From Quercus robur (taxonomy: Eukaryota; Streptophyta; Magnoliopsida; Fagales; Fagaceae): a stretch of 64,000 nucleotides of DNA. The position numbers and the translations under genes were made by a program. Location: NCBI RefSeq assembly GCF_932294415.1, contig NC_065543.1, positions 30,337,530-30,401,529 on the forward strand. Reading direction: 5' to 3'. Below the pieces are notes generated by a model that was not told the origin of the DNA, ran no database searches, and worked only from the letters and a program-made list of their open reading frames with translations. This document shows, one piece after another, positions 6,160 to 49,144 of the stretch (position 1 is its first letter; each line of letters opens with the position of its first letter).

Positions 6160-6162
6160 TAA

Positions 6163-7003: not shown

Positions 7004-7006
7004 ATG

Positions 7007-13180: not shown

Positions 13181-13215
<35 letters not shown>

Positions 13216-13391: not shown

Positions 13392-13426
<35 letters not shown>

Positions 13427-13974
13427 CACTAGGTTTCCATTCTTTTTTTTTTCTTCTCGAGTTCGTCAAAGTTGTCGCCGCTGTTGGTGTTGTCGAAGTT
13501 GTCGCTGCTGTTGATGTTGCTATTGCTACTATTGTCATTGTGGGTTGTAGCGATGGCTGCGGCGGTGGTGTTTTTTTTTTTTTTTTTTTTTGGGTTTTCG
13601 AAAAAGCATGAAAAGCATTTGGTCAAGGGAAAACGAAGGGGAAAAACATTGGGTTTTTTTTTGGTTATATTGTAGATCTATGAATAGCATGAAAATAAGG
13701 ATAATGGTGGGCTTGATTAAAATATGTGTTAACATGGATGAAGAGAAAAGCAGAGAAAAGTAGGGGAAAACGAAGGGGAAAGGCAGGGGAAAAAAAAGGA
13801 GAGAGAAAAGTCAACTGACATTGGGTCAGTGTGTGGGTCTCACAAACAGTTGAAAAATATTGAGTGATGGCAAGTGAATAATGATGCCAAACAGGTAGAG
13901 TATTTTAAAGTGATGAGTGATGAGTGATGAGTGATGGAAATTGAGTGATGAAAAAAAGCCATCCAAATAGCCCT
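12918..13974. mobile_element. Harbinger-like MITE, ~1.06 kb
   Basis: It is flanked by TAA (12915-12917 and 13975-13977). Its ends are related inverted repeats: GGGGGTGTTTGCATC on the left, AGGGCTATTTGGATG reading in from the right. Subterminal blocks of CATAACTCATAATTC (left) and GATGAGTGATGAGTGATGG (right) are complementary in style. The middle is polypyrimidine-rich with long T runs, (TG)n at 13202-13218 and CTT repeats. Long Phe/Ser-rich frames there arise purely from these runs. Confidence 0.65.
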
Positions 13975-13977
13975 TAA

Positions 13978-15291: not shown

Positions 15292-15294
15292 TAA

Positions 15295-16417: not shown

Positions 16418-16457
<40 letters not shown>

Positions 16458-17170
16458 TTGTTTTATTTTATTATTAATTTTTTTTGGGATGTTGCACTCT
16501 TATTTTCAGTGTGCTTGTTACTTGTTAGTATAATTTTATGTTAGTAGTCTTCGTTTTCTAGTTTGATTTAGTTAATGTATTAATATTTAAATTTGCGAAT
16601 TAAAATTGTTTAATAATTATATAAAAAATATAAAAATTTACAATTTGTAGTGCAAGCTAAATACCAAAAAAAAGTTTTTTTCATAACGTTTTCAAAAACA
16701 CAATGAAACATTAGAAAAAAATAATTTTTGTTGTTTTTTTTTTTTATGAGTAATTTTTGTTGTTGTTATTGATAGATACAATAGACTTAATTTATTAGTT
16801 GAGCTAAAAAAAAAAAACTCAGGGAACAATTTTTCTTGTGACCAAAAAGCATTCACCAAACACAACAGATCTAACCAGCGTTCACAAAAATCTGCCACCA
16901 AAAGGGCCTCATAGTGGAAAACGTCGTTGCTCGGTCATTATCGGGCTTGTGGCACACGTTGCACTGCGGGTCTTTTCTCTCTCTCTCTCTTCTCTCATTC
17001 TCATCCGTCACTGCACGTCATCAAAACAATTTGCTACTTTCCGTGTCCCAAATCCATCCATCCACGCCCACAATTCCACATTTTCCCTTTTCACACACCC
17101 GCACGTCACTCTAGCATTCCACTCGTCACCGTCCCTCCTCTTCTTCACCTTCTTCATTGTATTTCTTCTT
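15295..17170. other. Intergenic region before golgin gene
   Basis: No gene is supported. It contains poly-T/poly-A tracts (15403-15421, 15939-15974) and a (TA)n run at about 16424-16455. An 83-bp tandem duplication starts near 15592 and 15675; both copies contain GAACATCCACAAAGGAG and CAAGACTTGTTATCTTTTAC. The last ~250 bp before the golgin start codon are CT-rich, consistent with its promoter and 5' leader. Confidence 0.45.
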
Positions 17171-17301
17171 CTGACGTTAACATAACGTCCTCTCTCTCTC
17201 TCTGCAAAAACAAAGAAATAAAAAAGACCGTTACACAATGGCGAAGTGCGTGACTTTCTCTCTCTAAATAACCTGGAAATCCAGCTGAATCTGAAACGGC
17301 C

Positions 17302-17357
17302 ATGGCCAATTGGATCTCATCCAAACTCAAAGCCGCTGAAACTCTTCTCCAACAGGC

Positions 17358-17392
<35 letters not shown>

Positions 17393-20300
17393 ATCTTATG
17401 TTTGTTTCCCGAGAAAATTAATTTTAAATTTATACTTCACCAAACTCAATTCGAGTTAATCTTAGCATTTTCTCTGATCCTAAATTATGAATCTAACATT
17501 TTTCTACTGCTCTTAACTCTTCTAAACTTGTGATACTACTATATATTGTGATTTGTCTTTGATGCTTTCAATTCTTTCAAGATTTTGATGTGTAATATTG
17601 GTGTGGTGTACGGTTCAGATCGATCAGCAAGCGGCGGACTCGCTTCGCAAGGACGAGAGGCCTTATGCCGATGAACTAAATGTCCATACGCCGACAAAAA
17701 GCGAGGGCATTGTGCCTCTGAAAGATCAATTAAAGAAAAAACCACAAGAGAACAATGACTATAATGGAAAATTGCGCAGCGATCCAAATTTCAGTACTCT
17801 TAATAGTAAGGAAATTGAGATTTCTAGTGCCCCGAAACCCTCACCTAAACCTAAGTCTTCTACACTTACGGATAGTGATTGGACTGAACTCCTTGGCACG
17901 CCTAATCAGACCGCAAGCTCTGTGGTGAATCGCAGTAATGGTGGGAGTGTGATTCGCGGGTTGAGGAAGGATGGTAAGAGACGAGGGAGTTCAGTGGCAA
18001 ATGTTTTGGTATCGGAGGTGAAGAGGAATCAGAAGAGTAGTGGTAGTGGTAGTAGTGTTTTGAAATCGAGCTGGAAGTCAGGGGAGGAAAGTAAGTTTAA
18101 AGGGAAAGCGGGTGATGGGGAGGAGTCTAGCTCTTCGGATTCGTTGGGGAGGTCTTCGAGTGTTGATGTGCAGAGTGATGGTAAGTACTTAGAAACGGGT
18201 GTGAAGCTCGTAGGAGAATCAAAGAATGAGAGAAATGAAGAGAATGGCAGGCATTTTGACTCCAAGGGTGTTTCTTCGGAGGATTCTTCACCATTGAATC
18301 GAACTGTGGAGATGAAGTCGGTCTTGGAGAAGGTTGATGTAGTATCTGATGTGAAGACTAGAATGATGGATGATGTTCAGGGTAGGTTGAGAAATACTAT
18401 AAAGGAAAAGCAGAAATCCGTTGCATCATCCAGAAGTTCTGTCTCTGATGATTTAAAGAGAGGTTCTTCTTCGACGATTGATTTGAGTTCTGATTCAGAT
18501 TCAGATTCAGGTTCAACTTCTGACTCCGAGAGTGAAAACGAGAGGAAGGAAAAGAAGAGGAGGAGGGAAAAGATTCTGGCTGAAAAATTGGCAGCTAGAG
18601 CTGTGGGGGCTATCAAAGAGAGGGAGAATGTGGTTGCCAGGTTGGAGGGGGAGAAGCAGAGCTTGGAGAAAATACTAGAGGACCGAGCCAAACAACAAGC
18701 ACAAGAGGTACAATTATCCAGATTTTGTTATTGTTCTCTTATTTTTGTTGGATTTATACTGGTGATGAGGTTGACCAGATCATTTCTTGTTCAGGACAAG
18801 ATGCCATGCTCTTTGTGCTTGTGCTTCTTTTTTGGGGTGGGGGGGGGGGGGGGGGGGGACTATTATATTATGTGTAATTATGGAAATGTGATGCACTGTA
18901 ATAAGGTCTTCTATGGCCACAATAAAATGTTACAACATCTTCACAAGTGAGATGTCAATCATAGGTCAAAATAAAATGAAATAAAAAAAACATATATATT
19001 ACTGGGACTCACCACAACTCAAAACAAGGGTGTTGTGAAAATGTCGTAAGATTTTTTTTTGTCCCTAGACTTTCTCTTTTATAATTGATTGGTTTTCTTG
19101 GAGTAGGGAAGAATCATACATAGTTCGTTTTTCTTTATATAATTGTGTGTTATAGATCATAAATCTTTCTTTCCCTTTAAAAATAATAATAATAATAGTA
19201 AGATTCTATTGAAACAAAAGGGTGTAGTCCTAGTGCATTGGAAGTATACAATGAACATAAGTTAAAATCACCTCTCTACATATATTTTACAATTTTTGTA
19301 TCAATCACTCTTGATAAGAGGTATCTTTATACGATCAACTTATAAAATAAAAACCAAAGGAAACAGGAAGAAGTTGTCCGATTGGCATGAAGGGACAATA
19401 AAAATGCTTTTATTAAGAGAGCTCCTTTTAGTTAAAGAACCACATCCTGCATCACTATTCATGGTGTTTAATAAAAATGCATAACAGACAACAAAGTTGC
19501 TAACTAATCTAGTATCATCCTATCTGATTGCATTAGCGCGATTCTGTTCCATAAATACAATTCAAACCATAGGTTACACAACCTCTTATCCCTCACAAAT
19601 GAGTGAAAAGTTCCACTTTTTTCCAAGGTACAATCCCCCATCCCCCAACTATCAAATTATCTCTTCCCCCCCCCTCTTTCTTATCCAAAAAATTAAAAAT
19701 ATTGCCTTTATAGTTTTTGCAGAAACTATTAACACAGAAAATGTTGTGGGTTGATTGAAGCACTGATCTTTGCTAGTATTCTCTATGTTGCTTCCTACTG
19801 AAGAGGCTTAGTGAGGTCTTGGGTTCAACCATGTTAGGGGAGGATTTGGTAAGGGAGAGGACTATTTCCAGTTCTGTAGCCTAGTATGGCAATTTGATAG
19901 TTCTTGTCATTTCTCATTTTATTGATATTAGTAATTGTTGATTCCAGTTACTATTCACTTTGTCACTTGCCTGCAAGTGAAACTAGAAAAAAAAATACAA
20001 ATTAAAAAAGAAAAGACATGGAGCTACTTAGGATTCAAGGAACTTGAAACGTGCAATTTTACTTCCTCATGTTGTGAGTTTGGAACATTGGTAGTTTACA
20101 TCTTCTGCTTGTTATCTCCATATTGATCAACTTCATTTGGAGAATATCCTAAAGTTGTCCGCTTTTGATCTTAAAGGTTTGACATATATGGATTGGTTGT
20201 GAGAGGTATTGGTGGTTAATGACCCAAATCTATACTTATGTTAGTTTAGGGTTGGACAAGGAAGGTTGATATGTAGGACTGTCACTTGGAGAGATTGTGC

Positions 20301-26300: not shown

Positions 26301-29300
26301 ACTCTTATTACCTATCCAAAAAAAAAAAACTATGGTATATTTACCATTTATTGTACGGTGACTTTTTTCTTTTAATGAATGAAATTCACTTATTTATCAA
26401 AAAGAATTTGAAGATATATATATATATTTTAATATTCTTAATCCTTATTTTAATATATTAGATACATATGATTTAATGGACCTAATTTTACAATTAATAG
26501 ACCTAATTTCTTCACACAACACATATCAAACACACCTGATTATAAAATTTCAATATATTAGATACATATGATTTAAGTCCTACATGTATAATAACTATAT
26601 ATATATATTTTTTGATAAGTAATAAAGATTTATTGATATCAAAAAAAGAGAGACACCCAAGTACACACCCAAGTACACAGGGAGTATACATGGGTGTACA
26701 TATCAAATACAAAAATTACATAAATCAACTAAATCCAAAATTGAAGAAAAAGTTTGGTTTCTCCACATTGAGAACCAGTCCAATAAGGTTATGAAAAATA
26801 GAAACTTGAGATTAGGCATAGATCGCTAATTGTCTTCAAAAAACCAACTATTTCTTTCCTTCCAAATACACCACATCAAACAATGAGGAACAACCATCCA
26901 TATATCTCCATTATGATGGCGACCAAATCGACCTTGCCAGCAAGCAAGAAGCTCAACAATAGACATTGGCATAACCCAACAAACTCCAAATAAACCAAAA
27001 ACCATATCCCACAACTCCAAAACAACCGGACAATGAAGGAATAGATGGTCAACAGTTTCACTATTACACTTGCACATATAACACCAATCCAAAATGCATA
27101 TCTTTCTTTTCCTTAAATTGTCAATTGTCAAACATTTTCCCAAGGCAGCAGTCCATACAAAGAAAGCCACTTTAGAAGGAATCTTCTGCTTCCAAATGCT
27201 TTTCCAAGGGAAAAACTGCTCACTATGGCCAACTAGAAGATGGTAGTACACACTAACCATAAACCCCTTACTCTTACAAGGTAGCCAACATCTCTTATCC
27301 TCCCCAATTCTCCTTACAGGAGTGCAATAAATGGTATTTATGAAGCTCCAGAAAGCTTCCAATTCACGATTATGTACACCCCTACAAAAATGTATCTCCC
27401 AATGAAGGACTCCATTGGTGTACCTCATTAGATTAGCCACACTTGCCTCTTTGTTTCGACAAATCCTATATATTTCAAGATAGCAGTCTGTAAGAGAAGA
27501 TGTTCCACACCATTGATCTAGCCAAAACTGTACTTTTGATCCATCTCCAATTTCATACAAAATAAACCAAGATAAAGAGGGCCACCCCCTTCTAATATTT
27601 TTCCACAAACTAACTCCATATGGACCAGAGAATGAGCTAGAACACCAACCACCCCAATCACAACCATACTTCACCTATATCACTTGTCGCCATAGAGCAT
27701 CCCTTTCTTGCTCAAATCTCCATAACCACTTCCCTAGTAAAGCTACATTAAAGGTTCTCAGGTTCCTAATCCCCAAACCACTTGAAGAAAGTGGAGTACA
27801 AACCATAGACCAATTAACAAGATGAAATTTGGGCCCATCCCCCTAGTGTCTTTTTGCTTCAAGCGATATTAAGTCACCTTTTGTTGTTGACTACCTTTGT
27901 GCAGTAGAAGTTTGTGTGTGCCCAATATTAAGAGCAATCACATCAGCAGATGTAAAATAGAAAGTGTACAATTTTACACATTTTTGCTCAAAATTTACCC
28001 ACATCAATCTATCTATAATACTGTGCATATACAATATTGCTATAGTAACCGTGTAAAACGGATATTGTAGCTCTCTATTTTTTTTTTTCCTCTCTCATCT
28101 CTCATCTGATTCTCTCTCTTCCCCTACCCTCTTCCTCCTTTACCTTCTCTTGAATCCAGCAACATGCCATGAAAATCTGTACAAATCATCAAACTCATTT
28201 TGAATCTAGATCCCAAATTCATTAAACCCATATACAAATCCATATAAATAATCAAGAAGAAGAAGAAGAAGAAAAAGAAGAAGGGGGAGGGGATAGGGAT
28301 AACATATAAGGTTAGATATCCAGACAATAGAAAACGCACATGTAGCCCCAAAAAAAAAAAAAAAAAAAAAAAAACGTATTTTATATATAATATACAATCT
28401 GGTTGGGTTACTCAGTTGGAAACCCTAAACCTGACACCTGGCCTGCAAGTGACAGATAAGACCTGCTACCAACTGATTCACCCATTTGAAACCATCCATG
28501 ACCCTTCGGGTCAGAAGGGATCAGTAGGATGGGTTGGGATATAACTGGTTAGCGACCAGCCCTAATGTCATGAAACTGATGTTGATAGATGCAAGGATAC
28601 ACATGATATCCAGGGGAGGAAAGCTACAAGACAGTCCATGCCTTGTGTTATGAATTAAGACATGCATCGCCAAATTGGGTTAATATCCTTTCCCCATTTA
28701 TAGAGATTTTCAAGCTCCTGTAGGCATTACAATCTTTTTGGTTACCCTTGTAATTGGTTCATTTAGCTATATATTTAGGGATTTGATGGTCGCGGCACCT
28801 CTTCTATTATTTCTTGTATAATCCATGAAAGTGTGATATTATTGAGATCACATAAAAAGTTATTCTATTTTAATATAATTATATGATTTTTCTACACATA
28901 CAAATACATAAGTAGATATAACCTTATGGAGTAAGCCTTTGGTGACATAAGAAGAGGTTATGTGGCTCCTAGGCATGAGCATAAACTACCTAGCCTGCCA
29001 GGGGTGAATCCCCATGGATTACCTGGCAACTGGTTTGGTGGGTGGAGTCAGTAGCACACAGATTTTATTGGTTCCGAAAATGTGACAAATAGGTACTTTT
29101 ATTATTATTATTTAACAATAAAGAATCTAAATGCAAAAGTTGATAAACTGTGTACATTGCTTCTTTTGGATAAAGTAGGTTTAGGTTTGAGCATTTTTTC
29201 ACTGCAATATCCTTGAGATGTCCCCAGCTTCTTTTCTTTTGTAAATGCTGTTAGCATGACTCATTTCTTGTGCAAATGAAAGCCTGATGTTTAATCATGT

Positions 29301-34011: not shown

Positions 34012-34021
34012 CTAAGGAAGG

Positions 34022-34172
34022 GGCAAAAATGGCCCATTAGCATTAATTTTTGAAATATTTTGGCCCGAAACACTGTTTGGGAAATAAATAGGTAAGTACC
34101 ACTTTTGGTAGTACTCGAGCTTGGTGAGCTCGAGTACTCCATTTTTCTATTCCAAGTGGCACCTGACGTTGG
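34022..34172 (+). repeat. Left terminal inverted repeat of the Pack-MULE
   Basis: About 151 bp, matching the reverse complement of 42950-43101 with scattered mismatches and small indels. It ends in GGCACCTGACGTTGG. It includes an internal hairpin: ACTCGAGCT and AGCTCGAGT around TGGTG. Confidence 0.9.
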
Positions 34173-35637
34173 AACAGAATGACGTTGGAACAGAAAAATT
34201 TTAAAAATAAACTTGGTACCCGAGCTCCTGAGGCTCGAGCACTGCTCACCCACATTGTCTCCCTATTACCCCACAGTTAAACCATATGTTCCTAGAGCTT
34301 AAACCATCTGTTACCCAGAGCAAAACATACCCACAAACCAAACCTCTCAATCTCGCTATCTCCCTCTCAATCTAAAGCTATTTCCACACAAATACTCTCA
34401 TTCTACCTCTCAATCTCGCAAATACTCTCATTCTCCCTCTCAATCTCGCGATCTGCTTCATTCTCCGTCTCCGTCTCGCTCTCGGTCTCCCTCTCACAAG
34501 GTATGTCTCGCTCAGCTTGCATGTTCAGCTTGTGGGTATTTTTGTTTGTAAATTTGTTATTTTTATGCATAGTTTGATTCTGGGTTTTGATCAATTTAGT
34601 TAGTTAGTTAATTTATATTTTTCGGTGATTACTAGAATGTTGGTCTGGTTGTGCTTGTATTTTGGGTTCAATTCTGGATTCACTCATGAAAGGTTCTGTC
34701 CATGAAAGTCAGCAAATAATGAGGCCTACGGATTGAAACCCCAAATTCTACCTCAATAATTTAAAGATATAGGAATGATACCAATCTAGATATCGACATG
34801 GATGTTTCATTCAGATATGGACCAAACATAAAATTAAAAAGGATATTTTAATTTGGGACAAAATTTAGGCAAAAATAAGTTTTGTACATTAGGTTCCCCA
34901 AATAAATACAAACACATGGTTGCATTGACCAATGAAACACAAACAATATTATATTTCCAAAGACAAGTAACTTCAAAGCAGCTGTGTTTGAACATAATTG
35001 GGAAACATATATTGCACCTAAGCACCTAAGATATTGTGCATAAACTTTACCCTTTTATTTGATTTAGTTTAACCACACATGAAATATAGAAGAAGAACAA
35101 CAACAAAAACAAGAAATAAAAATCATAAGAATTTAGGTCTCCAAAGTTGTGCTGAGAATCGTCAGGCTGCCAATGTTGATAGGAGGAAGTGCCTTTCATG
35201 TTATAGTAGATAGATCACACTAATTTGAAGAAAAGCAGATCTTTGATCTTTATCGTGACCCTGTTAATGATTCTTAAACAAAAAGAGAAGTTTCATATCA
35301 AGATGATTTGATACATAGCTTCATATTCTAAAAGGAAAATTTCAGTTTGAAATAATATATAAAACATCATTATACCATTAATTTTTCTATATATTGGTAA
35401 TTTACACACACACCTTGTATGGGTCTTGAACCCACAACCACACCCCCTACCTTGCTCTTACAAGGGAAGAAGCCATTCGAGCCAGAGCTCATTAGCTCTA
35501 ATATCATTATATCATCACTGATATCTAGAAGCCTTTTACTGAACAATCGAACATAAAAACTATCCTAAAACCAGATAAAGTGCGAGCCCATAACAAAAAT
35601 AGAATTAAACATAGTCCTCTTTACAAGAATGTATAAT
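34173..35637. other. Pack-MULE left interior, leader-like region
   Basis: Next to the left repeat is a CT-rich plus-strand stretch (about 34330-34500) made of TCTCAATCTCGC-type repeats. It ends in CTCACAAG followed by GTATGTCTCG, which has the form of a 5' leader exon and splice donor. A second hairpin-like motif (CCGAGCTCCTGAGGCTCGAG) lies at 34221-34240. The rest is AT-rich. A piece around 35405-35515, with GGGTCTTGAACCCACAACCA, resembles a SINE-type B box in reverse orientation. No protein-coding gene was recognised. Confidence 0.45.
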
Positions 35638-35762
35638 AAGCACCTTCTTCATGCGGGTCTTGATTTCAGATTTGCGGGATTTGTTGTAGATGCGCCTTTT
35701 CTCAGCTTGACGAGCCCTCTTTGCAGCTGAGTCTACTTTCTTAGTTGGAGCCGCCTCACACA
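35638..35762 (-). pseudogene. Captured exon of chloroplast ribosomal protein S20
   Basis: The minus strand encodes CEAAPTKKVDSAAKRARQAE followed by KRRIYNKSRKSEIKTRMKKV. This is the start of the mature plastid 30S protein bS20 (PRPS20) as I remember it from Arabidopsis. Just upstream is a splice-acceptor context (TTTCAAGAAAGCAG, then TGTGTGAG), so it is a genomic exon with intron flank. The reading departs from S20 after Val-Leu at about 35638 (then IIHS), where the capture junction or a donor lies. The transit peptide exon and the rest of the protein are absent, so it is non-functional as S20. Confidence 0.85.
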
Positions 35763-35974
35763 CTGCTTTCTTGAAAAATTCACAAAACCCAGAATTTCAA
35801 ATCGTCCTAAAATTTCATTACCAGAACTTGGGGTTCTGAGAAAAGAAATGAACAAGGAATTGTCATTCATTGGAACTTGAAAAGGCCAAGACATAAAATT
35901 AAAATAAAAAAAACTTTATTCAACTGTACTTTAGCAGCTGGGTTATTTTCAATTTTTGAAAGTAACAACATGAA

Positions 35975-36420
35975 TCATAAAAATCTAGTCTGCTGTGCAG
36001 CCAGTGATTTATTTTGGCAGCTGGAATTGTTTTGAGACTGAAGTTCAGTTTGTCCTGAATCTTCTGGACCAGTGATTGAAATTTCAGTCTCTTTCATTGA
36101 TTTAGTACTGAAGCCACCATTAGTCATGAAGTAAGGCTGTTGTTTAATAGAATTCATTTCCTCACATATTCTTCGCTGCTTTGCACCCAAACTAAGGTAG
36201 GCATGCTCATTTTGTTCCAATGGCCTTTTCCGAAATGATTCTTGACACATCACACCCTCTAATTCTCTCACATCAAGTAGAAGAACCAGTGTATTTAACT
36301 CTACTTGATTGCAGTAAAAAGAAACAAGATGGCCGTAAGTCATTTAAGACAACTCCTTGAGAGTGTGCAAAATCCACTAACTCCACAATCTGCCTGAATA
36401 TAAGCACACTTTCAGTCTTT
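35975..36420 (-). pseudogene. Captured SPA1/SPA2-type (COP1-interacting) fragment
   Basis: The minus strand from about 36415 reads ESVLIFRQIVELVDFAHSQG, then VVLNDLRPSCFFLLQSSRVK and YTGSS. This resembles the kinase-like N-terminal region of SPA proteins, which repress light signalling together with COP1. A stop follows, and in another frame the text continues with QESFRKRPLEQNEHAYLSLG, AKQRRICEEMNSIKQQ and so on to a stop at 35975. The change of frame implies a 1- or 2-base indel. No WD40 or coiled-coil region is present. The identification rests on motif memory, so the precise SPA paralogue is uncertain. Confidence 0.72.
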
Positions 36421-36495
36421 TGCAAAATTATCTATGGTTATAACTAAAAATGACATGAATACAACCTTAAAATCCATTGACTGCAGAGTACGCAC

Positions 36496-39069
36496 CTTTC
36501 TACGAACAAGACGGTTTATATCGACCTCGCCCATAGCACCAATTTGTGTAAGTCCAACCATTACAACTTTTCCTCCATCTCTCACACTTTGTGTACATTG
36601 GAAAAATGTCTGTGGTTTTCCCAAGGCTTCCACAACAATGTCTACACCCACTCCCCCTGTTATTTCCTGTCCAAAACATATGAATAACATGTTAGAGGTT
36701 GGTTCATAAATTAAGAAAGAATACAGTGCGCATCCATTTGATGTAATCAATTTAAAAATGTTTGATGCTAATGTTATGGACGACTTGTAAAAGGTCAGAG
36801 TACCCAGGACAAGACAATTCTAGCAATATAGTTTTGATATAAAACAATCACAATGAAAGTTATTTTGTGTTGAATGTAGAATTTTTTTTTTATGAAATAC
36901 AATATAGAGATGCCAAAGGTAAATATCTGAAGTTTGATCCATCCTGGCAAGACTCTACGTTATTTTTATGTCCCTTATACATTAACACTATCACAACTTG
37001 TCATTTTTTTAAGTGTTAGAATATTCACATATGAGCAGTGTGGCTTAGTAAATGGTAAAGTCCCACATGAAGTAATGATGATAAGAGAGAATAGTTAACA
37101 TAACATTGTTGGGCCCAAACTCATTGTCTATAGTTTTTGGGTTAAGTGGTGTCCCAAAATGTTATATGAAGCCCTCACAAACAGACTCCTCAATTTACTA
37201 ATGTGGGCAATTGTTTGATGCCACTATCATTAGTGGCTCCCACTAAGTAGAAAAATATATCAAAATTGGATAAGAATTATAAGAGTGATTGGTTATTAAA
37301 TTGTTGATATTGAAACTCATTAACTTAAACTTTGGGTTAAGTGATGTCCCAAAATATCATATGAAGCCCTCACAAAGAGACTCCTCAAGGTGATAATGGT
37401 TAACTTGCACAAAAAGGCAAATCCCAACAATAAGTAACAATTTTATTAAACAAAGGAAAGCTCTAAATGAAGAGCTTCCTAAAGATTACAGCCAAAGACT
37501 TAAATCTTCTATAAAATCAACTAAAGAATTGCAAGAAACCTTGTACAACAATCAAACAGAAAGCGTAAAAAAGAGGCCTTCAAAGTGGCAGAATTAAAAG
37601 AAGGAAAATACAAAACTAAGTTCATGGCTCTCACCAATCACGAGTGAAGCATCAAATAAAAGTGAAGAAATTCCATGTAGAGCAAATTCCAAAGCATATA
37701 TGGTTGCTTGCATAGTATTTTGATGGAGCTCATTGGACAACTTCAGTGGACACATTGTAGAAACAAGTATCAACTAAGCTTGAAAAAGTTAGGACTTCAT
37801 TAAAAGAAAAGCAACTGAAGCGCAGATAAGATTGTTCCAATGGCCAGTTTAATGGAAACTTTACATGAAACACTAAGGTGACCCCCAAAAAGTCATAGAA
37901 ATAGTGCATCCATTACAAAAGTTGAAATCATAAACAAGAGTAATCCATAAGCAAGTATTATGGAACTTTATAGCTCACTAAAAGGTTGAAGAAAAAGATG
38001 TAGCACGTACTTTTATCTTTTCAATAGCATCTTCTAGAATTGCATTTATTGTGTGAGTGGCTCCAAATTGCTTGGCTTTCTGCAGTTTCTCATCCTGAAC
38101 ATCCACAGCAATAATATCAGAGGCACCAAAAGCTCTTGCTATCTGCAAACAACTGGAGCAGGTGATCTCGTTATAGTAATGTTAAAAAGACCCCAATGAA
38201 ATTGGATCACATACTTCCACAAGTATTTAATGGTTATGAAGGCCAACTTTTATAAAGTGTAGGGGTGAAATTTGGACCCAATGAAGGAAGACAAGACTCA
38301 AAATACCACCAAACTCTACAATAGATTCCTTCTTATTAATTACCACCATTTTTTCTTCTTTCTGGGAACTACTTTTTTTACGCTAGTGTTAGAAACATAG
38401 AGAACTGAATGTCTCTACTGAGATACCATTGGTGAGGTGTTCCTATTCTAGACCCTTCTAGAATGTATTATTGCCAAGGTATCTCTACTATCTGTCACTA
38501 CCATACATTATGAGGTTTTTATTTCAAAAGAGTGTCAAGTCACACAACCAATGCTCTATTGGTTAATATTATCATGTACAATTCTATTGCAATAAAATGC
38601 TTCCTAATATTATAGTGGAAGCATTTATTATTTCCATTTGAAGACTTCTGATATACTTTCTAAACCTTAATATATGGAACTTTGTTTAATTAATTTAGTC
38701 ACTTCACAATTTTAAATTGAAAGGGAAAAAAAAGTATATGGTTACTAAATTTTGAATTGGCCAGTCAAACGTTATTTAAGGTACTGATAAGCAATTAAAG
38801 ATACAATTATCAACCCAGAAAAAAGTAAATAAAGTATACAACTTTAGTTGTTCACCTTGAACCAACACCTCCAATTCCAATCACAGCAACAGAATCCCCA
38901 GGACGCACCTCAACTGCGTGGGCCATAGCACCATAAGCAGTAAAAACTGCAAATCCTAGAATTGCAGAGTCTATGTATGGCAACGAGTTGGGCAAAATAG
39001 ACAAGGCATGTGCTGGCACAACACAGTATTCAGCAAGGCCTCCCATACAATACATGAATATTGGTTTTC
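36496..39069 (-). pseudogene. Captured zinc alcohol dehydrogenase (HER2-like) NAD-domain exons
   Basis: Three exons, 38856-39069, 38011-38152 and 36496-36666, join in phase through GT-AG introns into about 175 uninterrupted residues. They read PIFMYCMGGLAEYCVVPAHA, VEVRPGDSVAVIGIGGVGSS (nucleotide-binding glycine motif), IARAFGASDIIAVDVQDEKL, EITGGVGVDIVVEALGKPQT and EVDINRLVRRK. This matches my memory of Arabidopsis At5g63620 (HER2, a GroES-like zinc alcohol dehydrogenase). The N-terminal catalytic zinc-binding part and the C-terminal exon (IGSYGG...) are missing, so it cannot be a working enzyme. The exons show no stop codon or frameshift, unlike the other cargo, so it was captured recently or is constrained. 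Intron sequence is kept. Confidence 0.88.
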
Positions 39070-40717
39070 CTACACAGTAGACAATTTATTTTAGATTATG
39101 TATTTTATAAGCATTACACAAACAATTACAATAAAATTCAAGATAGATGGATATATCAGAAGAATACTTTGACTGATGTAAAAAACTAAAACATCATAGA
39201 GAAAAGAAAAAGGAAAGAAAATGAATGTAAATAACTATCTAACATGCATAGCCAGGAAAAATTCAACTTTAGAAAAGCAATTCCTTCCATGAATAATAAT
39301 TATCTATTCTAACCAAGCAGAACTAGATACCTGCTTTCTTGACCTCACATAATTTAGTCATATTGCACTTGGCCCTTCAAGCTTGTAACCAATATGTTGA
39401 AACAGTACTTTCTTTTTGTAGAAATGATTTGAAAAAACAAAACTGAGACTTAAAGGAAGATGATGGACAAGATATTTTGAGAAAGGATGCAAAAAAGCAC
39501 AAGTGAACAAATTGCGAACTATAACATATCCATAAACACAGAATTCTTTTCCATAGAACATGATCATACCATTGAAAGAACTTAACAAAGACACAGAAAA
39601 AGGAAGAGAAAGATATTTTAATAAAGGTTGCAAAAGAGTGCAACAAATGAAAAATAGGAACTAGAGCACACACACAACTTGCAATGAAGATGGACATAAG
39701 TTCCATGGATAATTGAAATGATGTAGCAATATAAGATGCAAAGATAAAGTGCATATAGTGAGGCTTATAAGATGCAAAGATAAAGTGCATATAGTGAGGC
39801 TAAACTGTCTACAATACAAAAATAAATATGAACATAGTTAGGCTACAACATCTAAGTTGCTCCACATCAAACACGTGGTGAGGGAAACTATCTAAACAAA
39901 AGCTAATTGTAAAATCACATTTCAAACAAAACATACATACACATGCATTTAGGTTACCAATCTCAGCATGTAATACAAAGTTTGAAGAGTATCAACCCAG
40001 ACCCACAAACAAAAAGTAAATGATTTTTGTGTTCTATCCTCAGGTAATAGGTTGAGTCAAAATAATAAACAAATATATAACATATCTTTCCGATTTCAAT
40101 GCCTTAAAAACAAATATTTACCAAGCAACTAACTAAATTTGAATGCTGAAACTAAAACTCTTTTCGATTCTCAATGCATCTATTTGGCTACATTGAACTT
40201 AAAAAAAAATAACATTGACTCAAAATTCAATAGAATTCACCCCCTCACATCATAATCAATAATTGTTCAACAGCTATAGTTTTACATGTAACTAATTATT
40301 TATGTAGATTTTTGTCAATTGTGTTTCTTTTGTAAACTAACTCCAAAACTAATCATAAATTAATCTCAAAAACCAAATCTTGTTGGAATTTGAACATATA
40401 GCACAAATTAATCAACCATTTATTAACAAAAGATTAAATTAAGAATGGGACAATTAAGGGGGAAATTCATAAAAACTTACCTTTCAAAATTTTTGGTGCT
40501 CGTTCTAATGCAATGACTTAATCACTATAATATGTGACCACTGTAACCTATGTATCGCAACTACAAGGAAAAAATTAAATTTGATTTTAATTTTTTAATA
40601 AAAAGCATTCAAATAACTTGACAAAAACGAACAAAGAGAACATTAGAAACAAGAACATAGGAAGAAGGAATGAAATAAATACCAATAAAAAAAAATAAAA
40701 GAATAGTTGAATTATCA
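39070..40717. other. Pack-MULE interior without recognised gene
   Basis: AT-rich DNA between the dehydrogenase exons and the TAF1 fragment. It includes a 36-bp tandem duplication (39731-39766 and 39767-39802) containing ATAAGATGCAAAGATAAAG. I could not find the missing upstream dehydrogenase exons here. Confidence 0.4.
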
Positions 40718-41640
40718 AATACTGCAAAGCACGGGAGGTTCTTCTGAAGTTGGATGTTTGTGAGGAGGAGATTGCGAAACTGACTAGGTGGCACCGTATT
40801 GCTATGATACGCAAACTTTAAAGTGAGCAAGCTGCATCGGGGATACAGATTGATCCCACAACTATCAGCAAGTATGCACGTGGCCAGCAGATGTCATTTC
40901 TTCAACTGCAATAGCAGACAAGGGAGAAGTGTCAGGAGATTTGGGAACGACAAGTTCAGAGTCTTTCTGCCTTAGATCGTGAAAATGAGAGTGACTCTGA
41001 AGGAAATAGTGATCTTGATTCATTTGCTGGGGATTTAGAGAATCTTCTTGATGCAGAGGAATGTGAGGAAGAAGTAGGTAACTATGAGTCAAAGCATGAC
41101 AAAGCGGATGGTGTTAAGGGGCTCAAAATGAGAAGGCGCCCATCCATAGCTCAGGCAGAAGAGGAAAATGAAGATGAAGCCGCTGAAGCTGTCGAATTAT
41201 GCAGGTTACTCATGGAAGATGATGAGGCTGAGAGGAGGAAGAAGAAAAAGACTAAAGTTGTGAGGGAGGAAACAGGGCTGGCTTTGGGCTTGCAACCAAG
41301 TTTTGGTTTGAGAACACAAATCGGATCAAGCAAATTGTCAGTACTGCCCAACCTGATGGGTCCTATTCTTCCAAAGAGATATTTAATAAAGACATGAAGG
41401 AGGTAGAAAATGTTATTGCGAAAAAAGGCAAGTATGGAAAGGTGAAAGCTTTAATGAAAAAGAATGATATCACAAGTGTTGGTCTAGTCAGTAAGAAAAT
41501 CAAAATATCGGGAGATAAAGTCAAGGTTTTTAAGGAGAAGAAATCTGCAAGAGAGAGTTTTGTTTGTGGGGCATGTGGTCAGCTTGGACATATGAGGACA
41601 AACAAGACAGGAAACATGAAAAATATGGATTTTAGGGTGA
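40718..41640 (+). pseudogene. Captured TAF1 (TFIID subunit 1) fragment
   Basis: The plus strand reads REVLLKLDVCEEEIAKLTRW, HRIAMIRKL then a stop, QIDPTTISKYARGQQMSFLQ, another stop, then SDLDSFAGDLENLLDAEECE, GVKGLKMRRRPS, and AVELCRLLMEDDEA. After a frameshift near 41310 it continues KVKVFKEKKSARESFVCGAC, GQLGHMRTNK. This is the central region of plant TAF1/TAFII250, including the CGACGQ-GHMRTNK zinc knuckle. HAT, ubiquitin-like and bromodomain parts are missing. At least two stops and one frameshift make it a pseudogene. No intron is visible over about 0.9 kb and it faces opposite to the other cargo, so it may stem from an mRNA copy or from one long exon. Confidence 0.88.
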
Positions 41641-42138
41641 GATGGGTAGGGGATGCGCACCCTCAAAACCTTTTTCTTTTTCCCAGAGAATACACACCCC
41701 ACAACCTTAATTATGGACTAACCTTTTTTTTGCTGTGAGGTGTACTTATTCTAGTAATGATCTCCTTGTCAATAATAGAATCCTAAACTGAATTTATACA
41801 TTAAGAGAATCATGAAGCACATGCAGGAAACACAATTCTTGTGTCACCCCAAAGACAATGTATAAGACCATAATTCACAGTAATTTAACATTTAACTTGG
41901 TCCACATAAACACAATTATGTGGTCCATCTTATCTTAATTTGGTCCGTACTAACAATGCCCCCCTTCTTTCTTTCTTTTTTTAGTGGAAATCGCCATTTT
42001 GTTAAATGATAGATTTGTAGTAGTATCTCTTTTCATTTACAATGAATGTTGGGGGTTTAATAATGTGGATTTGTTTGTCTATAACGTAAGTTTACATTAT
42101 TAGTGCAATTTAAAGCTATAAAAGTCTTCTATCACTTC

Positions 42139-42173
<35 letters not shown>

Positions 42174-42537
42174 AAAGCTATAAAAGTCCAAGATTTATAC
42201 CTTCAGCCTTCAGTGCTTCCAATTTTTCATTCAAACACACTAAGTTCCAAATTCACCAACACAACCTCACAGCACCCACACAATCAAACTAGCTAAGTTC
42301 TTCACAACACATTATTCACCAAAAACTAAAACCCAGATAAAAAAATTAGAACTTCTTTCAAAAAAATCAACATGCTAAGTTCTTCACAACACATTATGCA
42401 CCAAAATTCAAAAAAGTATGAAATTTCTTGAAAATTTAAAACAAAAACCAAGACATGGAATTGCAGCGCCAAAACCAGTTGGATTAGTGAAAATTAAGAG
42501 AAAAAGAACTCAAATTTTTCGGAGAGAGAGAGCTTAC
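41641..42537. other. Pack-MULE interior, right part
   Basis: AT-rich sequence with a 31-bp A run near 42142-42171 and a short duplicated phrase (CTAAGTTCTTCACAACACAT at about 42293 and 42374). No coding evidence. Confidence 0.4.
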
Positions 42538-42949
42538 AAAGCGCCATTGAAGGGGAAATGGTCCGCGTGGTGACTCTGTGAAATGAAATTGAAAACCCTA
42601 ATTGGTCGGAGATAGGGAGAAGAAAGGGCGAAGAAGAAGATGAGGACGAAGACGACGTCGCACCACTGTCATCCAACGGAAAGGCCATTACCATCGCTCC
42701 TCCAACAACCACCACTTTCCCTTCTCCTATTCCCTCAGGCGCGACGGCGACGGAGACCACGATTCCACTCCCCCGGCCATCATCGATACGCGAAAGCGAT
42801 CACAACGACGTTTTTAATTTCTGCCCCCGATGGTGTGAGGGTGTGAGGGTTTGAACGTTTGGGGTTTGAACCTTTAGGTGTAAGTGAGAGTGAGAGTGAG
42901 ACTGTGTTCTGGTAAGGGTGAGGGTGAAGAGAGACTTTAAACTCAGATG
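42538..42949 (-). other. Exon-like leader at the right end of the Pack-MULE
   Basis: GC-richer block between the right terminal repeat and a donor-like GCGCTTT|GTAAGC (minus strand, boundary 42538/42537). It begins with a leader of CTCACTCTCACTCTCAC type. A minus-strand frame from 42760 (Ser-run, ending SPSMALC) crosses it, and a plus-strand Asp/Glu- and Pro/Thr-rich frame (about 42603-42835) is also open. I do not recognise either. It is probably the 5' exon of another captured gene. Spliced directly to the dehydrogenase exon at 39069 the frame would meet a stop. Confidence 0.4.
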
Positions 42950-43101
42950 CCAACGTCAGGTGCCACGCTGGAACAGAAAAATGGGGTACTCGAGCTCACC
43001 AAGCTCGAGTACCACAAAAAGTGGTACTTCCCTAATTATTTTCGAAACAGTGCTTTGTTGCTAAATAATTCAAAAATTAATGCTAATGGGCCATTTTTGC
43101 C
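42950..43101 (-). repeat. Right terminal inverted repeat of the Pack-MULE
   Basis: Inverted partner of 34022-34172, ending in GGGCCATTTTTGCC directly before the target duplication at 43102-43111. It contains the same CTCGAG-bearing hairpin (about 42989-43012). Confidence 0.9.
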
Positions 43102-43111
43102 CTAAGGAAGG

Positions 43112-43207
43112 TTATTCTTTCATTGTGAATAGCGAGTGCGGGATTAAACTTCTTCATTAAGTACGGTTCAAGCAGACACTTTTAAAGTTAATTTCTTATT
43201 TACTCCT
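43112..43207. other. Right flank of the Pack-MULE
   Basis: Short unique-looking sequence between the target duplication of the Pack-MULE and the truncated MITE. Nothing is recognised. Confidence 0.35.
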
Positions 43208-43210
43208 TAA

Positions 43211-43380
43211 GAGCATCTGCATCAGTCCATGGAAAACCTTGCAAAATACAAAAAGTAATCCATTTTACACATTTTAACCCAAAAAAAAAAACTCACATCA
43301 ATGAGTGTAAAATTGTACAAAAATGCAAAACTGCTAAAGTAACCGTGCATATATACACAGTTATTGTAGCATTTGCATAC
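43211..43380 (+). mobile_element. Truncated GAGCAT-type MITE (left end)
   Basis: TAA (43208-43210) then GAGCATCTGCATCAGTCCAT, with TTTTACACATTTTAACCC, AAGTAACCGTGCATATATAC and TATTGTAGCA further in, as in the elements at 13978 and 27932. The right end was not found. A pyrimidine-rich zone follows to about 43480. Confidence 0.6.
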
Positions 43381-43695
43381 TAATATTTTAATAATTTCTA
43401 ATTTCGCTCCTTTTTTTTTTCTCTTTTCTCCATCTGCAAAACCAATGCATTCTCTCCCTTGTCATCTTCTTTCTTCCTCTGATACACACCCTCCTACTGA
43501 CACAAAATCAAAAATCAACCACAAAAATAAAAAAAATCAATATAGCAAAGGGAGGGGGAAGAACAACATAAAATAAATAAATAAAATAATAAAAAAGAGG
43601 ATAATTCATAGATCCTAATCCAGACATTTCTTTAGGTTCTTGTTAGCATTGGTTTCTTGTTTGATCCCAACATCCACTTGAGGTTGAAGCCGCGG

Positions 43696-43727: not shown

Positions 43728-45609
43728 TTCATTTGTTGTGCTGCTTTCAATCCACAACATTGGAAGCCTCGGGTTTGTGAGTTTGGTGTCAATACTCAAC
43801 TTATATTTTGACTTTATGCTGCATCATGTATTGTTAAACAAAAAATTCGTTTCTCCTTGTTCATCGCATATGATGTACTTACTAAATGCAATTTTTTTTA
43901 AAACGTAGGAAACAATTTTAAAGGAGAACCCTTTAGACTCGCTTTTAGCTAGTAAAACTTATGGGTAACTGACCCCACCTGCTCAAATTTGACAGGTAAT
44001 CTGGGGGCATTCACTCCATACAAGCTGCGTAGTTCATGTTCATGCCCATGAGCATGATAAACTGCATGCATTGTGATATTGATAACAGAAGAAAGAGAAA
44101 AATGAAGGTACCAATGAAATTGTCAAATTCTCGCACATAGCAACCATTCATATATACATTTTTTTAAATTGAACATTGTTCGGGATAACAGGACATGCTT
44201 GAACATTAACAAATCAGAATTTCATTTATCATAATAGTAGTCATGGAGAAGAAAAGTGATGAACCATACATCCATAGGAGGATAGAGAAATAAAACATTG
44301 CAAATCAAAGAGTCATGAAGAACTAGCGCATCTTCATTCCATCGCTACTTTCTCTCCTGCTTGTTCTATACCTTGCACAGATGGTAACGAACAACCAGAA
44401 AAATGGTATTATTAACACTTCAAAAGTTTACAAATACAGAAAAGTAATGCACTGCCAATTAAAACCTTAAGCCATATAATAATATCATAAATTATGGACT
44501 TCTTATTTTTTGAAGTCCACTACCTTGCACACTCAGTAAATTGCTTGAAAAAATAACAAAGCATAGGATTAATGACAAAGTCAGGCAAACAAAGAAAAAT
44601 TATGCACTTCAATCCAAACAAAACCTTAAACCATATTATGATATTACCATCTTGTTGACTATCTCATTATTCCATTCCATCCACTCTGATGCTACATATG
44701 TCCATTCGATTTCTTGTACACAAGGTATGAAGCATATATAACCTAAAAGTTATCTGTGTGTGTGTATGTGTTTTCCATGTGGAACCCAAGTTGACGAGGA
44801 CATTACTATTGTAATAGTAAATAACAGAAAACAGCAGTCAATTTCTGATTTCTTTCACATTCATACATTACAGTTAGATGTAAAAAGAAGTCCGGTACTC
44901 TTAATTATGGTCAGCTAGGGAAGAGGAAGAAGGTAGGGAACAGAGCAAACAGATGACAAGGGAAAGATCAGGAAGGAACTTGCAGCATCTTCTATGTAAC
45001 CTTAAATGTAATGAAGTTTGGAAAGAACTGGACATTCTCAATACTTGCAACATGGTTCTGGCTCAGTTTACTTTATTTAGTTTTTTGGTTTCTCATTTCT
45101 CCTTCCAACTCAACACCTATCTATAAACCAAAAGGTTTTATTATTTATCTTGGCCTTTTTTTTAATAACTAAATATACTTTAATTAGATAAACACTAATG
45201 GGCTCAACCTTAGCACACAGGATCAGGCCCTATTGGGAGAGAGAGGGGGGGGGGGGGGGGGGGTGTGGTTGGAGAAGGGAATCTAAGGTCCAAATATGAA
45301 CCATCTAGACACTAACCCTTCAGACACAGAGAGTAAGAACATGGAAAAAGACTACAACAGTAAGTAATGCTGGTATATATGATAATATATCACTATAGAG
45401 TCATTTGACTCCCAAGGTTCAGAATACAATCCCAAGTGAAATTCTGTTTGCCCAATAGAATAGATATATGTAGCTTCAAGCATCAGTAAAATATTCCATA
45501 TTCAGAACACGCAACAAATAACTTCACACAATAACCCAAGTTAGATGAAGATTGCAAGTGTGGCATGAGTCTCTTGTCAAGATAAAAGCATTTGCAGAAA
45601 GTTTAAGCC
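43381..45609. other. Intergenic region before the DUF1295 gene
   Basis: No gene is seen. Simple repeats include (GA)n at 43695-43721, (TG)n at 44756-44768 and a run of 19 G at 45245-45263. The part just below 45610 is the 3' UTR side of the DUF1295 gene on the minus strand. Confidence 0.45.
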
Positions 45610-48600
45610 TCACCAGTTTGACCCTTCCTGTGGAAGACTACGACTGTAGAAAGGGAATTCGAAAAGGAAAGTTGTTTTGAACCATGAGGGCAAATTCCCA
45701 TATACTGCTGGTGGCAGCGGAATTAGAGGGCTGCAACATACTATGTTAGGCTTAGTTACTTCCTCCTCCTAAATACACTTAAAAGATTTAGTAAAAGAAG
45801 AAAGGAAGAACATAACCTAGTTTTTCTTTTATAAAGCCCATATCCAGTCACATTCCCAAACTTCTTATCTGCCGATTCCTGGTAACAATTATGCAGTATT
45901 TATCATAAGCAGATTCAGAATGCAGTGGATATAGTAATTAAATCCAAAGCCGGGAGAAGCAAACCTCAAGCAATGGTATGCCACTGATGAAAAGAAGCAA
46001 CAATGTGAGGAAGATTGGCCCAAGGATTACAAGCCACTCAGCACCTTCAAGTACAGGTGTGGAAGCCACAAAAATTCCCCACCAGAGGAAAATCTGAGCT
46101 CAACATTCATCAAGGTTTCATTATTTTACAGAATTATAATCAAGGTAAATAATGTAACAATGTTGTTGAACATATGATGTATTCATATAATTGTCATGTT
46201 CATGAGGTATGGCTTCTGAGCATGTGAGATGTATGAGGCAAGCATATGTTACCAGATTCCCAGAACTGAAGGCTAATTTTAGTCACTTCCTCAAAAAAAG
46301 CTATCAAATTTTTCATAATTAAACTATCTATTTTCTTTACCCAGATATATTGAAGAATCAATACTGTAGTGCCACAGCAGTGGAGACTCATATTTAGGAT
46401 GTCATCTAACCTAAAATTCAACAGCCTAAATGTGCATACTGTCCATTATTCAGTTGAAAGAAGTCTAGATGTTACAAATTATGACTCATTGATATGGTTT
46501 CATATTTAGGAGTTTATAGTTATAGCAGTAAAGTATAAGATAGATAGCACACAAAAAATCTGCACCTTGCATGCAACCAGTAACCATGAGAAAGATATCA
46601 TCAATTACAAATGAGATGGATTAAAACAGAGAAATATATATATATATGTATGTATGTATATCATTACTTTAAGGTTTCTTTTGTTAACAGCGTTTTACAT
46701 TTCTAAGCAGCATCATGAACAGAAGCATTCAGCACCAGCTCTAATTATATGTGCATCTAAACGAAATGGCAGCACTAACCTCACCAAAATAGTTTGGATG
46801 ACGAGAGTATTGCCATAGTCCAACATTGCACCATTTCCCTCTATTTTCTGGAGAGTTTTTGAATGTTAGTTTTTGCTGATCAGCTGTTGCTTCAACTAGA
46901 AAACCCACCGACCAAATAATCCAGCCAATTATGTCCTCAGCCTGGAGAGATGGATTTCTGTTGCTTGAATTAACCACTGTAACAGGCAAACTAACTGTCC
47001 ACACCCAGACAGCCTGCAGTGAAGGGGGTAAATCACATATCGAATGTCAAAAACTATATATAGACACTCCAAATGGCAACTAGAATTCCAGTATACAGTC
47101 ATAGCTAATCCAAAATAGATATAGAGAAATCCTAAAAAACCTGAAATATCCAGAAAACTGCCAGTTTTCCCAAACTAGCACGCATTTCATCTAAACGCCT
47201 ATCCTCCCCCCACTGCAAGATCCTGATCATAGTACCCAGAAAATAAAAATTAAATATTAAGTTGATGTCTAGGTGATTGGTGATACTGCACTAAATAGCA
47301 ACAACATTGTTAAGTTTGGCCTGGCCCTAGGGATAAAAATTATTTGTAAGTCAAGTATTCAAGTTAAGGATTTGGACAAGTATATAAACTAATTTTAGAA
47401 CACCAAAACCAAAGCAAATGGAATGATACAAGAGAAGATAGCAGCATTCAGTAAATTGTGTAAAAAGAAAACAAAACTTTTATTAAATCTAAAAGTAAAA
47501 TTTGAGTAGAAGAACTGATAGAGTCCACATCCACCACTATGGTTGAAACTAATAAGCAGGGGCCAAGCATCAAAAACAATAACTAAAACAAAAATGATGC
47601 CTACAACATAACAAAGGACATGCCTCAAGGTAGAGGTGAATGCCAGAGATTTCATCTATCCACAACTCCAGGTAGTTCAAAATATGAGGTTTTGTCAAGT
47701 TGATTTTCAAGAACTAAAATCAAGTCACAAATTTAATAAGCTGTCTAATAAAATGTACATAGACTAGCCTTGCTAACTAATAAACTTCATCATTTCATGT
47801 TAGAATCAAATAAATCATACCTCATTAATAGAAACAGTCCCAGGCGGAGACCCCATATTGCTACAAGCAAAGTCAAGACTATCTGAAATCACAGCAGCAA
47901 AATTATATATATAATGAGACCATGTTGAACAACACATTGGCCAGCCACAATTGATGGACACTTTATGTGAGGCCTTGATATGACAAGTTGGGATACTGCC
48001 TTAATCAAAAACTTAAGCGTATAGATTTGGACCCAACAATGTTATATTAATCACTCAGAAATGTCAGGCTTAATCACTTTCACTCAAACATGAAATTCCA
48101 ACCATGAGGAATATATTGCACTTGAGAGACACAAATTCCTTCTTTTTATTAATAATCAGAACACAACCACAAAAATCATTTATCCAACAAAAAATATAAT
48201 TTTTCTTAGAAAAATTGAAAAAATTACCAATTGTTTCAAAAGTTTAAGCATCCTCACTTAATAAGTAGGGTCCAACACGTGGGAAAATTTTAAAATAGAT
48301 GATAGAATAGAGAAACGGCTCAAACTTAGGATCACATGCTCTGATATCATGGTAAACTATCATTTGTCCCAAAAGCTTAAACCACTAAGAAAGTGTGAAT
48401 TTAATCATTTAACTATAATTCTAACAAAAATAGAAACTTGGATTCCATCATAAGCGTAAAGCAATACCCACTTAGTATAATAAAGTTGGGTTATTTTTCA
48501 AAGCGTAAGAGTCTGTGCAAAAGTGTGAAGCAGAGGGTGTTAACATGTCCAGCCCAATCAAAGAAAAATGGAAGATCATATTTTGAGAATTTTCCACAAA

Positions 48601-49086
48601 CAACCCCTGATAATAGAGAGTGCACGAGCACAAGCACAACAACACAAACATGATTATTTATACCTGTCTGAAATGCCATGAGCCTTTCAGAACCAGAGTC
48701 AATATGGCAATGATAACAAAATTTGTGCTTCCTGCAAATTCAAACAACAAAAACAAGAAAAACCAGAGTTAACGTGCAAAACAGCTTTGCAACTCAACAA
48801 GCAATAAAATTTCCAATTTCATATTAGCGTTTTAAGCAACAAAAGGATTAAAGAAAGAAAACCCACCAGCAAAGTCAGTGACTTTATCGAATTTGAGAAG
48901 AGCAGTGACTATAAAGAACAACAACTGATACCCCACCTGCAAATACCAATATCCAATTTATTTTGACAGGCTTATACATACATCAATAAAGAAAAACTCA
49001 CAAGGGGAGAGAGAGAGAGAGAGAGAGAGTATTACAGTGACAATAGCAGTTAAGCCCAAGAAATGGGAGTCGATAACGGTTCCCAT
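45610..49086 (-). CDS. DUF1295 family membrane protein (steroid 5-alpha-reductase-like fold)
   Basis: Nine exons, from the 5' end: 49036-49086, 48867-48936, 48664-48731, 47821-47882, 47141-47222, 46780-47013, 45965-46093, 45817-45878 and 45610-45730. They join in phase to 292 aa from MGTVIDSHFLGLTAIVT to GSNW. The family signature is in exon 6: EATADQQKLTFKNSPENRGK and YSRHPNYFGE (ending at residue 189), then WWGIFVASTPVLEGAEWLVI. Several hydrophobic segments give a multipass membrane protein. The C-terminal region resembles steroid 5-alpha-reductases and isoprenylcysteine methyltransferases; the substrate is unknown. The length and text agree with my memory of Arabidopsis At1g18180/At1g73650. 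All splice sites are GT-AG. Confidence 0.93.
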
Positions 49087-49144
49087 GAGTATGAAGATCT
49101 AACAGTGCCAATGACCAAATAGAATAATAATGGCACTTCTTTAT

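Follow-up and report, generated by a model that had tools for sequence, protein, structure and literature searches.

Mutator-like elements (MULEs) of the Pack-MULE type, described in rice, maize and tomato, generate duplications of 9-11 bp and may draw on several parent genes (PMC4858842, PMC3310237); 5-10% of MULE-derived genes in rice have at least two parents, and the lengths of tomato Pack-MULEs peak at 1.0-1.2 kb. Fragments of several genes are likewise described from the 5.7-kb soybean CACTA element Tgm-Express1, which holds five host-gene fragments (PMC1947982), and from maize Pack-TYPE elements, which often contain several loci, more of them in the wider elements (PMC8903248). For the Pack-TIRs of animals, gap filling, microhomology and a same-chromosome bias are supported by a survey that, by design, discarded intronless captures of multi-exon genes, and the same source terms gene pick-up by Mutator-like elements perplexing (PMC8277862). 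In PMD-MULEs, known from grasses and Amborella, a plant mobile domain (PMD) is fused to the transposase (PMC5418596). Here we compare with these systems a 9080-bp element, E0, that occupies positions 34022-43101 of a window of 64,000 nucleotides of Quercus robur DNA (C39:30337530-30401529 of a 786-Mb assembly in 42 contigs).

Overall, we believe, with a probability of about 0.84, that E0 is a non-autonomous Mutator-like element that arose by a stepwise history from cargo-loaded, transposase-bearing relatives of ~24 kb. One of its cargo pieces, from TAF1, is on the evidence of its sequence derived from spliced RNA and not from gene DNA. What merits reporting is how the element seems to have been built up in steps, and that its TAF1 cargo is spliced and permuted; the locus keeps an unusually full record, comprising transposase-coding relatives that bear cargo, a same-chromosome donor, and both joints of a capture together with a template slip. 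At the same time, multi-gene cargo is not exceptional in itself. The original prediction, made from the letters of the window alone, had called four fragments in 9 kb exceptional, a claim that falls because the shorter CACTA element carries five (PMC1947982), maize Pack-TYPE elements are often multi-locus (PMC8903248), and multi-parent genes make up the fraction given above in rice.

With the Pack-MULEs as they are described, E0 shares Mutator-type ends, a duplication within 9-11 bp, the lack of a transposase and the host fragments; it differs in its 9-kb length, its probable descent from large cargo-bearing elements and its one RNA-derived cargo. Tgm-Express1 resembles it as a DNA transposon with fragments of several host genes, but belongs to the CACTA superfamily and is reported to keep exons and introns in its fragments. 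Animal Pack-TIRs agree with E0 in single-copy capture, microhomology and same-chromosome donors, and the class of intronless captures that their survey excluded is the class seen in the TAF1 cargo.

E0 among its large relatives

E0 is a Pack-MULE. Its ends are inverted repeats of ~151 bp, 88.9% identical over 153 aligned positions and flanked by a 10-bp duplication with zero mismatches. Its cargo comes from four host genes, encoding plastid ribosomal protein S20, a kinase-like protein that we take to be SPA-type, a zinc alcohol dehydrogenase (ADH) and TAF1, and the parents of all four pieces were located. The family transposase, used as a query, has no match in E0, though it matched four of the relatives introduced below (E2, E3, E5 and E8), and PMD has no match in E0 either. 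The original prediction of a single Mutator-like insertion of the Pack-MULE class, with four host-gene fragments and no transposase, is thus borne out under the usual definition of that class.

The ends recur in the genome, where the left end has at least 42 matches (best 40 of 1018 candidates scored). Among the matches listed, at least 15 inverted pairs besides E0 span 0.6 to 29 kb, ten of which were read in sequence; these are E1 to E5 (12139, 20453, 25272, 14054 and 20898 bp) and E6 to E10 (6427, 2741, 23950, 2118 and 570 bp). The size range of the family reaches at least 25 kb, and all 11 elements read, E0 included, have their own perfect duplication of 9-10 bp. Because stretches in the same order recur between the same ends elsewhere with different duplications, the reading of E0 as two solo or unrelated ends, which the original prediction had itself raised, is rejected. 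The 89% identity of the two ends is not usable as a clock, because left-right identity spans 87.5 to 100% across the 11 members.

Four of the copies read contain at least part of the transposase, and in two of these, E3 and E8, both of its frames are open; the transposase of E2 has stops, and E5 retains only residues 156-491 of the second frame. The long open frames of E8 encode MuDR DNA-binding, MULE transposase and SWIM domains, together with a PMD protein (PF10536, E 1e-53), and among named transposases those of Lithocarpus, Castanea and Quercus are the nearest. By their coding content, E3 and E8 appear to be autonomous in type. The oak family resembles the PMD-MULEs, as these are described, in that Mutator-type elements carry PMD, but here PMD has a frame of its own, on the strand of the transposase, and is not fused to it. 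Ratios of non-synonymous to synonymous substitution (dN/dS) range in the large elements over 0.36-1.10 for the transposase, 0.29-1.63 for PMD and 0.84-3.13 for a third frame, between pairs that are too close for these values to discriminate.

Most of E0 can be found in these relatives. The stretch 34030-36420 (left end, S20 and SPA) is common to E1, E3 and E8, which also share parts of its right half, TAF1 included, so that S20, SPA and TAF1 are all present in these three copies, two of which (E3 and E8) also have an open transposase. The stretch 39761-43093 is common to E4 and E5, save for a deletion of ~820 bp in E0. E2 and E6 have no TAF1. Only the ADH middle (36421-39731) occurs in none of the relatives read, and ADH is the sole cargo piece captured by E0 itself. 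The cargo had been attributed to a single element; this stands for ADH and fails for the other three pieces, because E1, E3 and E8 already carry them.

The ADH piece (zinc ADH domain, Pfam E 3.3e-12) differs from its parent by 54 mismatches and 3 gaps, introns included, a divergence of 1.6%, and occurs near full length in E0 and one gene only (best 40 of 213 candidates scored). E0 and this donor gene share a chromosome, on which about 10 Mb separate them, and the donor has no family end within 1.5 kb; the stretches read around the SPA and TAF1 parents also hold none. Compared with E8, the 3.3 kb of ADH stand in place of ~16.6 kb that include the transposase and PMD (E8 2985-19592), and the loss of the transposase looks like the same event as the ADH capture. 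Element and donor have AG in common at the left joint and TA at the right one, beyond which the next 33 bp of the element occur twice, with AGGC where the sequence returns. DNA synthesis with template switching would be expected to leave such a back-slip, and simple end joining would not. The 37 transitions between donor and E0 comprise 24 from G/C to A/T and 13 in reverse, a bias that would fit a methylated copy, with polarity unproven.

Several observations on these sequences stand apart from the argument. E7 (C37:65052786-65056518) has family ends and a 10-bp duplication around a near-perfect palindrome of 2.74 kb, whose arms of 1316 bp share 1313 identical bases and flank an 84-bp centre derived from PMD. 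The arrangement resembles maize Mu-killer, and E7 could give rise to a hairpin RNA against the family. In E2, coordinates 16897-19486 hold frames that by eye resemble an organellar Der/EngA-type GTPase with introns kept, possibly a further host-gene capture. The ADH intron contains 77-bp copies (37117-37193 and 37313-37388, 87% identical) that are also present in the parent gene, and the part around them has diverged matches at many places in the genome; a paralogue of the donor, 80-88% similar, lies about 120 kb from it (C39:20218645-20221129).

The spliced and permuted TAF1 cargo

The TAF1 cargo, whose closest named relative is 'TFIID subunit 1-like', corresponds to a parent on the minus strand of C40, from 24386892 down to 24375104, from which it diverges by 1.2-2.2%. 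The parental introns measure 3788, 404, 162, 5845 and 94 bp (by subtraction of exon edges, the middle of the 5.8-kb intron being unread). Their donors read GTATGT, GTATTG, GTAAGA, GCAAGT and GTGTGT and their acceptors are all AG, making four GT-AG introns and one GC-AG intron, and all five are gone from the cargo to the base at the splice sites. This absence was read at base level in seven of the 12 copies (E0, E1, E3, E4, E5, E8 and E11), and the remaining five match the intronless query end to end. All 12 loci, E0 among them, lie within family ends (21/21 candidates scored). In front of the spliced exons stands a piece of the same large exon to which F, the last of them, belongs, taken from 461 bp downstream of the point where the F piece stops, so that the order is permuted. 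Because five introns are missing exactly at the splice sites and part of a downstream exon is set in front, the cargo came from spliced RNA, its order scrambled. The original prediction had recognised the TAF1 fragment and missed both that it is intronless and that it is permuted.

The edges of the cargo bear on how it arrived. The two permuted pieces have AGCAC in common at their joint, which lies inside the large exon, away from any splice site. This makes an ordinary back-spliced circle unlikely, and we leave aside a circular-RNA origin of the permutation as unsupported. Both outer edges fall inside exons, the right one 25 bp into exon F, beyond which element sequence follows, and they share CC (left) and AAGA (right) with the flanks kept in the TAF1-free copies E2 and E6. 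No poly-A tail was found at the 3' edge, and no target-site duplication of the cargo's own, its flanks TTATCC and AAGACAGG not repeating each other. The cargo thus resembles plant retrogenes and processed pseudogenes in being a spliced cDNA copy of a host gene, and differs from them in having no poly-A and no flanking duplication, in being permuted and in lying within a DNA transposon. Between the same flanks E2 has 2.6 kb of other sequence, and three more TAF1-free loci carry on the E2 sequence at the right edge. Because E2 and E6 keep the flanks, and E2 and these three loci the other sequence, we read the TAF1 cargo as having replaced a stretch of an older element. We had considered that E2 and the TAF1 copies were each filled at one shared hot spot, and dropped this; since E2-like sequence runs on in the three further loci, only the TAF1 line needs a replacement.

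The capture can be placed in time. Annotated proteins of Q. lobata, P0123 (30 member sequences) and P0124, match the TAF1 cargo, and since they include changes shared by the family copies, it is very probable, barring gene flow, that the capture from RNA happened before the two oaks separated. A 245-aa TAF1 frame is open in five of the six copies tested; it is closed in E0, with two nonsense codons and a deletion of 1 bp that E11 shares. At such low divergence an open frame is weak evidence of function, and dN/dS for this frame, where defined, ranges over 0.13-1.79 between very close pairs.

For the route from RNA to element, we put at roughly even odds a two-step account, in which TAF1 mRNA first gave a genomic retrocopy, permuted or in tandem, that was captured as DNA and then lost from the Q. 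robur lineage. It needs nothing beyond known DNA-level capture, and a Q. lobata protein, P0125 (A0A7N2N598, 332 aa), has downstream-exon sequence followed by exons A to F, an order like that of the transposon. At both of its ends P0125 reaches beyond the transposon piece, and at a position where the seven copies read have leucine it has the phenylalanine of the host; no other among the 120 proteins listed covers it fully, the next best reaching 89%, in Prunus. P0125 is nonetheless a gene model, an A-to-V change of some family copies is found in it too, and it may represent the donor retrocopy, a copy of separate origin or a gene duplicated in tandem. Against the two-step account, the Q. robur genome yielded no free-standing TAF1 copy (21/21 candidates scored, with no separate search using the parental large exon), and besides the parent and one 67-bp piece every TAF1 match is, or adjoins, family sequence.

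That same lack of a donor speaks for a direct route, in which fragments of spliced TAF1 cDNA or RNA filled a 2.6-kb gap by microhomology, with no genomic retrocopy; so do the missing poly-A, the edges within exons, the 2-5 bp shared at all three TAF1 joints, and the other sequence that E2 retains between the same flanks. We hold this route to be possible and no firmer than that, since P0125 suggests a longer permuted copy in another oak, and the loss of donors is common. More generally, it is a tentative proposal of ours that gap repair in Mutator-like transposons takes spliced transcripts, as cDNA or RNA, directly as filler. If so, DNA transposons could capture and multiply intronless host sequence without any retrotransposon insertion, the TAF1 sequence in 12 oak elements would be the fixed record of one such event, and the mixture of intron-bearing and intronless cargo within the family would reflect the use of both templates.

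The TAF1 piece shows that MULE cargo can be RNA-derived, so that gene capture by these elements is not solely DNA-to-DNA. We met no intronless or cDNA cargo in Pack-MULEs in the literature searched, from which subscription papers were mostly absent, so that this absence is unproven. The frequency of RNA-derived cargo can now be counted, a class that one large survey, as its published text describes, removed by design.

Two further observations concern TAF1. The 1408-bp contig P0122 (source lgn) has a 331-aa open frame that spans the right joint, from TAF1 into the transposon, and matches the frame at window positions 41256-41738. In the parental gene, the intron between exons Z and A (C40:24384579-24386417) contains frames that by eye resemble the reverse transcriptase of a long interspersed nuclear element (LINE).

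A proposed stepwise history, and what weighs on it

The S20 piece is 94.9% identical to its parent over 973 columns (5.1% divergence) and 81.1% over a further 412 (18.9%, indels included), with 124 parental bp missing; its identity rests on Pfam (E 4.2e-8), PDB 4v61 (E 2.5e-15) and the plastid bS20c of 5mmj (E 1e-12). It overlaps by 4 bp the SPA piece, which diverges by 3.2% from its parent and has a weak Pkinase match (Pfam E 0.0017), the parent being an exon open over 444 aa or more that itself falls just below the Pfam kinase cut-off. In E3 the SPA match is also to a single exon (C4:35218193-35218747), so that DNA and RNA origins are indistinguishable for this piece. E2 and E6 retain 147 bp of SPA, and the S20 and SPA stretch (query positions 1-1721) recurs at 98-99% at no fewer than seven other loci (best 40 of 735 candidates scored). 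Their higher divergence from the parents suggests that S20 and SPA are older captures than TAF1.

A general history can be proposed. The anatomy of E0, its relatives, the parent genes, the intron content and the sequences of the joints are direct observations, whereas we infer how repair proceeded, in what order the older steps came, and that mobilisation occurred in trans. The lineage would have gained pieces of SPA and S20, either before or after TAF1 (the order is uncertain). Spliced and permuted TAF1 sequence, 1.04 kb of it, would have taken the place of 2.6 kb inside an element, and this form would have spread until 12 copies or more existed. Finally, a single copy would have exchanged its transposase core for sequence from the ADH gene. 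For the TAF1 and ADH steps, consider a break in an element, or its excision: repair of the gap would copy inward from the ends, lose its template, switch by microhomology to foreign sequence, and finish with a joining of the ends. The microhomologies at the joints, together with the 33-bp slip duplication, suggest an interrupted gap repair of this kind, and the shortened product would presumably be mobilised in trans by the transposase of its relatives.

Several points weigh against this history. Genome searches score at most 40 candidates, so that short or decayed copies can escape them, and no direct progenitor of E0 was identified. The sister copy E11 (on C35) is without 35773-36001, and was read at its two ends only. 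By alignment, E4 and E5 have TAF1 and are without S20 and SPA, which leaves the order of capture unsettled in spite of the divergences. Microhomologies of 2-5 bp could be chance, the slip duplication being the stronger sign. Finally, the surroundings of the S20 parent include a miniature element of ~220 bp (C37:25409236-25409455), diverged, whose ends resemble those of the family (71-75%). It lies upstream of the predicted start of S20 by about 240 bp, and 524 bp separate it from the stretch that was captured; S20 may for this reason have entered by a neighbouring element end, a route other than gap filling.

We nonetheless prefer the stepwise history to a one-off Pack-MULE that gathered four genes alone. 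The four-gene combination is indeed seen in one copy only (best 40 of 213 candidates scored), but relatives with their own duplications carry S20, SPA and TAF1, which refutes a lone gathering for three of the four fragments and makes it very improbable for the whole. Capture of TAF1 as DNA with later deletion of its introns is a bare possibility and barely credible, given five exact splice-site removals in each of the seven copies read, none of which keeps some introns, and the match of the other five to the intronless query; we reject it.

Features of E0 and of the surrounding window

Coordinates of E0 and of its parts, in window positions
Feature	Position	Strand	Remarks
Target-site duplication, left, CTAAGGAAGG	34012..34021		identical to 43102-43111
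Left terminal inverted repeat	34022..34172	+	88.9% vs right end
Family left subterminal sequence	34173..34665		common to E1, E3, E8; mostly also to E2, E4-E7
Plastid ribosomal protein S20 fragment, genomic	34666..35989	-	intron sequence kept; parent C37:25409979-25411458
S20-like residues	about 35638-35769	-	Pfam S20
SPA-type (presumed) kinase-like fragment, one exon	35986..36420	-	parent C4:35218315-35218747, 96.8% over 435
Zinc ADH fragment, genomic	36421..39731	-	parent C39:20340103-20343412, 98.3% over 3319 columns
ADH exons (edges estimated)	36497-36667, 38011-38143, 38859-39071	-	intervening introns kept
33-bp filler (template slip)	39732..39764		duplicates 39768-39800; joint sequence
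Family internal sequence, resuming past the ADH replacement	39761..40703		98.5-98.6% to E5 and E8, 96.1% to E4
TAF1, piece of downstream exon set in front	40696..40732	+	163-bp match in E3, E5, E8; cut by the ~820-bp deletion
TAF1, spliced exons	40729..41607	+	exon-by-exon match to parent on C40 (-); five introns absent
Family right subterminal sequence	41608..42950		whole or part common to E1-E6 and E8
Right terminal inverted repeat	42951..43101	-	pairs with left end
Target-site duplication, right, CTAAGGAAGG	43102..43111		identical to left copy

Within the left terminal repeat, positions 34110-34138 form a palindrome with perfect 12-bp arms and a 5-base loop, AGTACTCGAGCT-TGGTG-AGCTCGAGTACT, and the right terminal repeat holds a similar one. 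Two genes converge on E0, which separates their 3' ends (31255 and about 45600-49100); by eye, the left one encodes a golgin-like protein and the right one a membrane protein of DUF1295 type. One repeat has diverged copies (66-69%) at 43205-43510, immediately beside the insertion, and at 13972-14270 and 27951-28071. Elsewhere in the window, positions 5589-5937 and 14514-14901 hold densely packed repeats, both inverted and direct, and a tandem duplication of 193 bp (95%).

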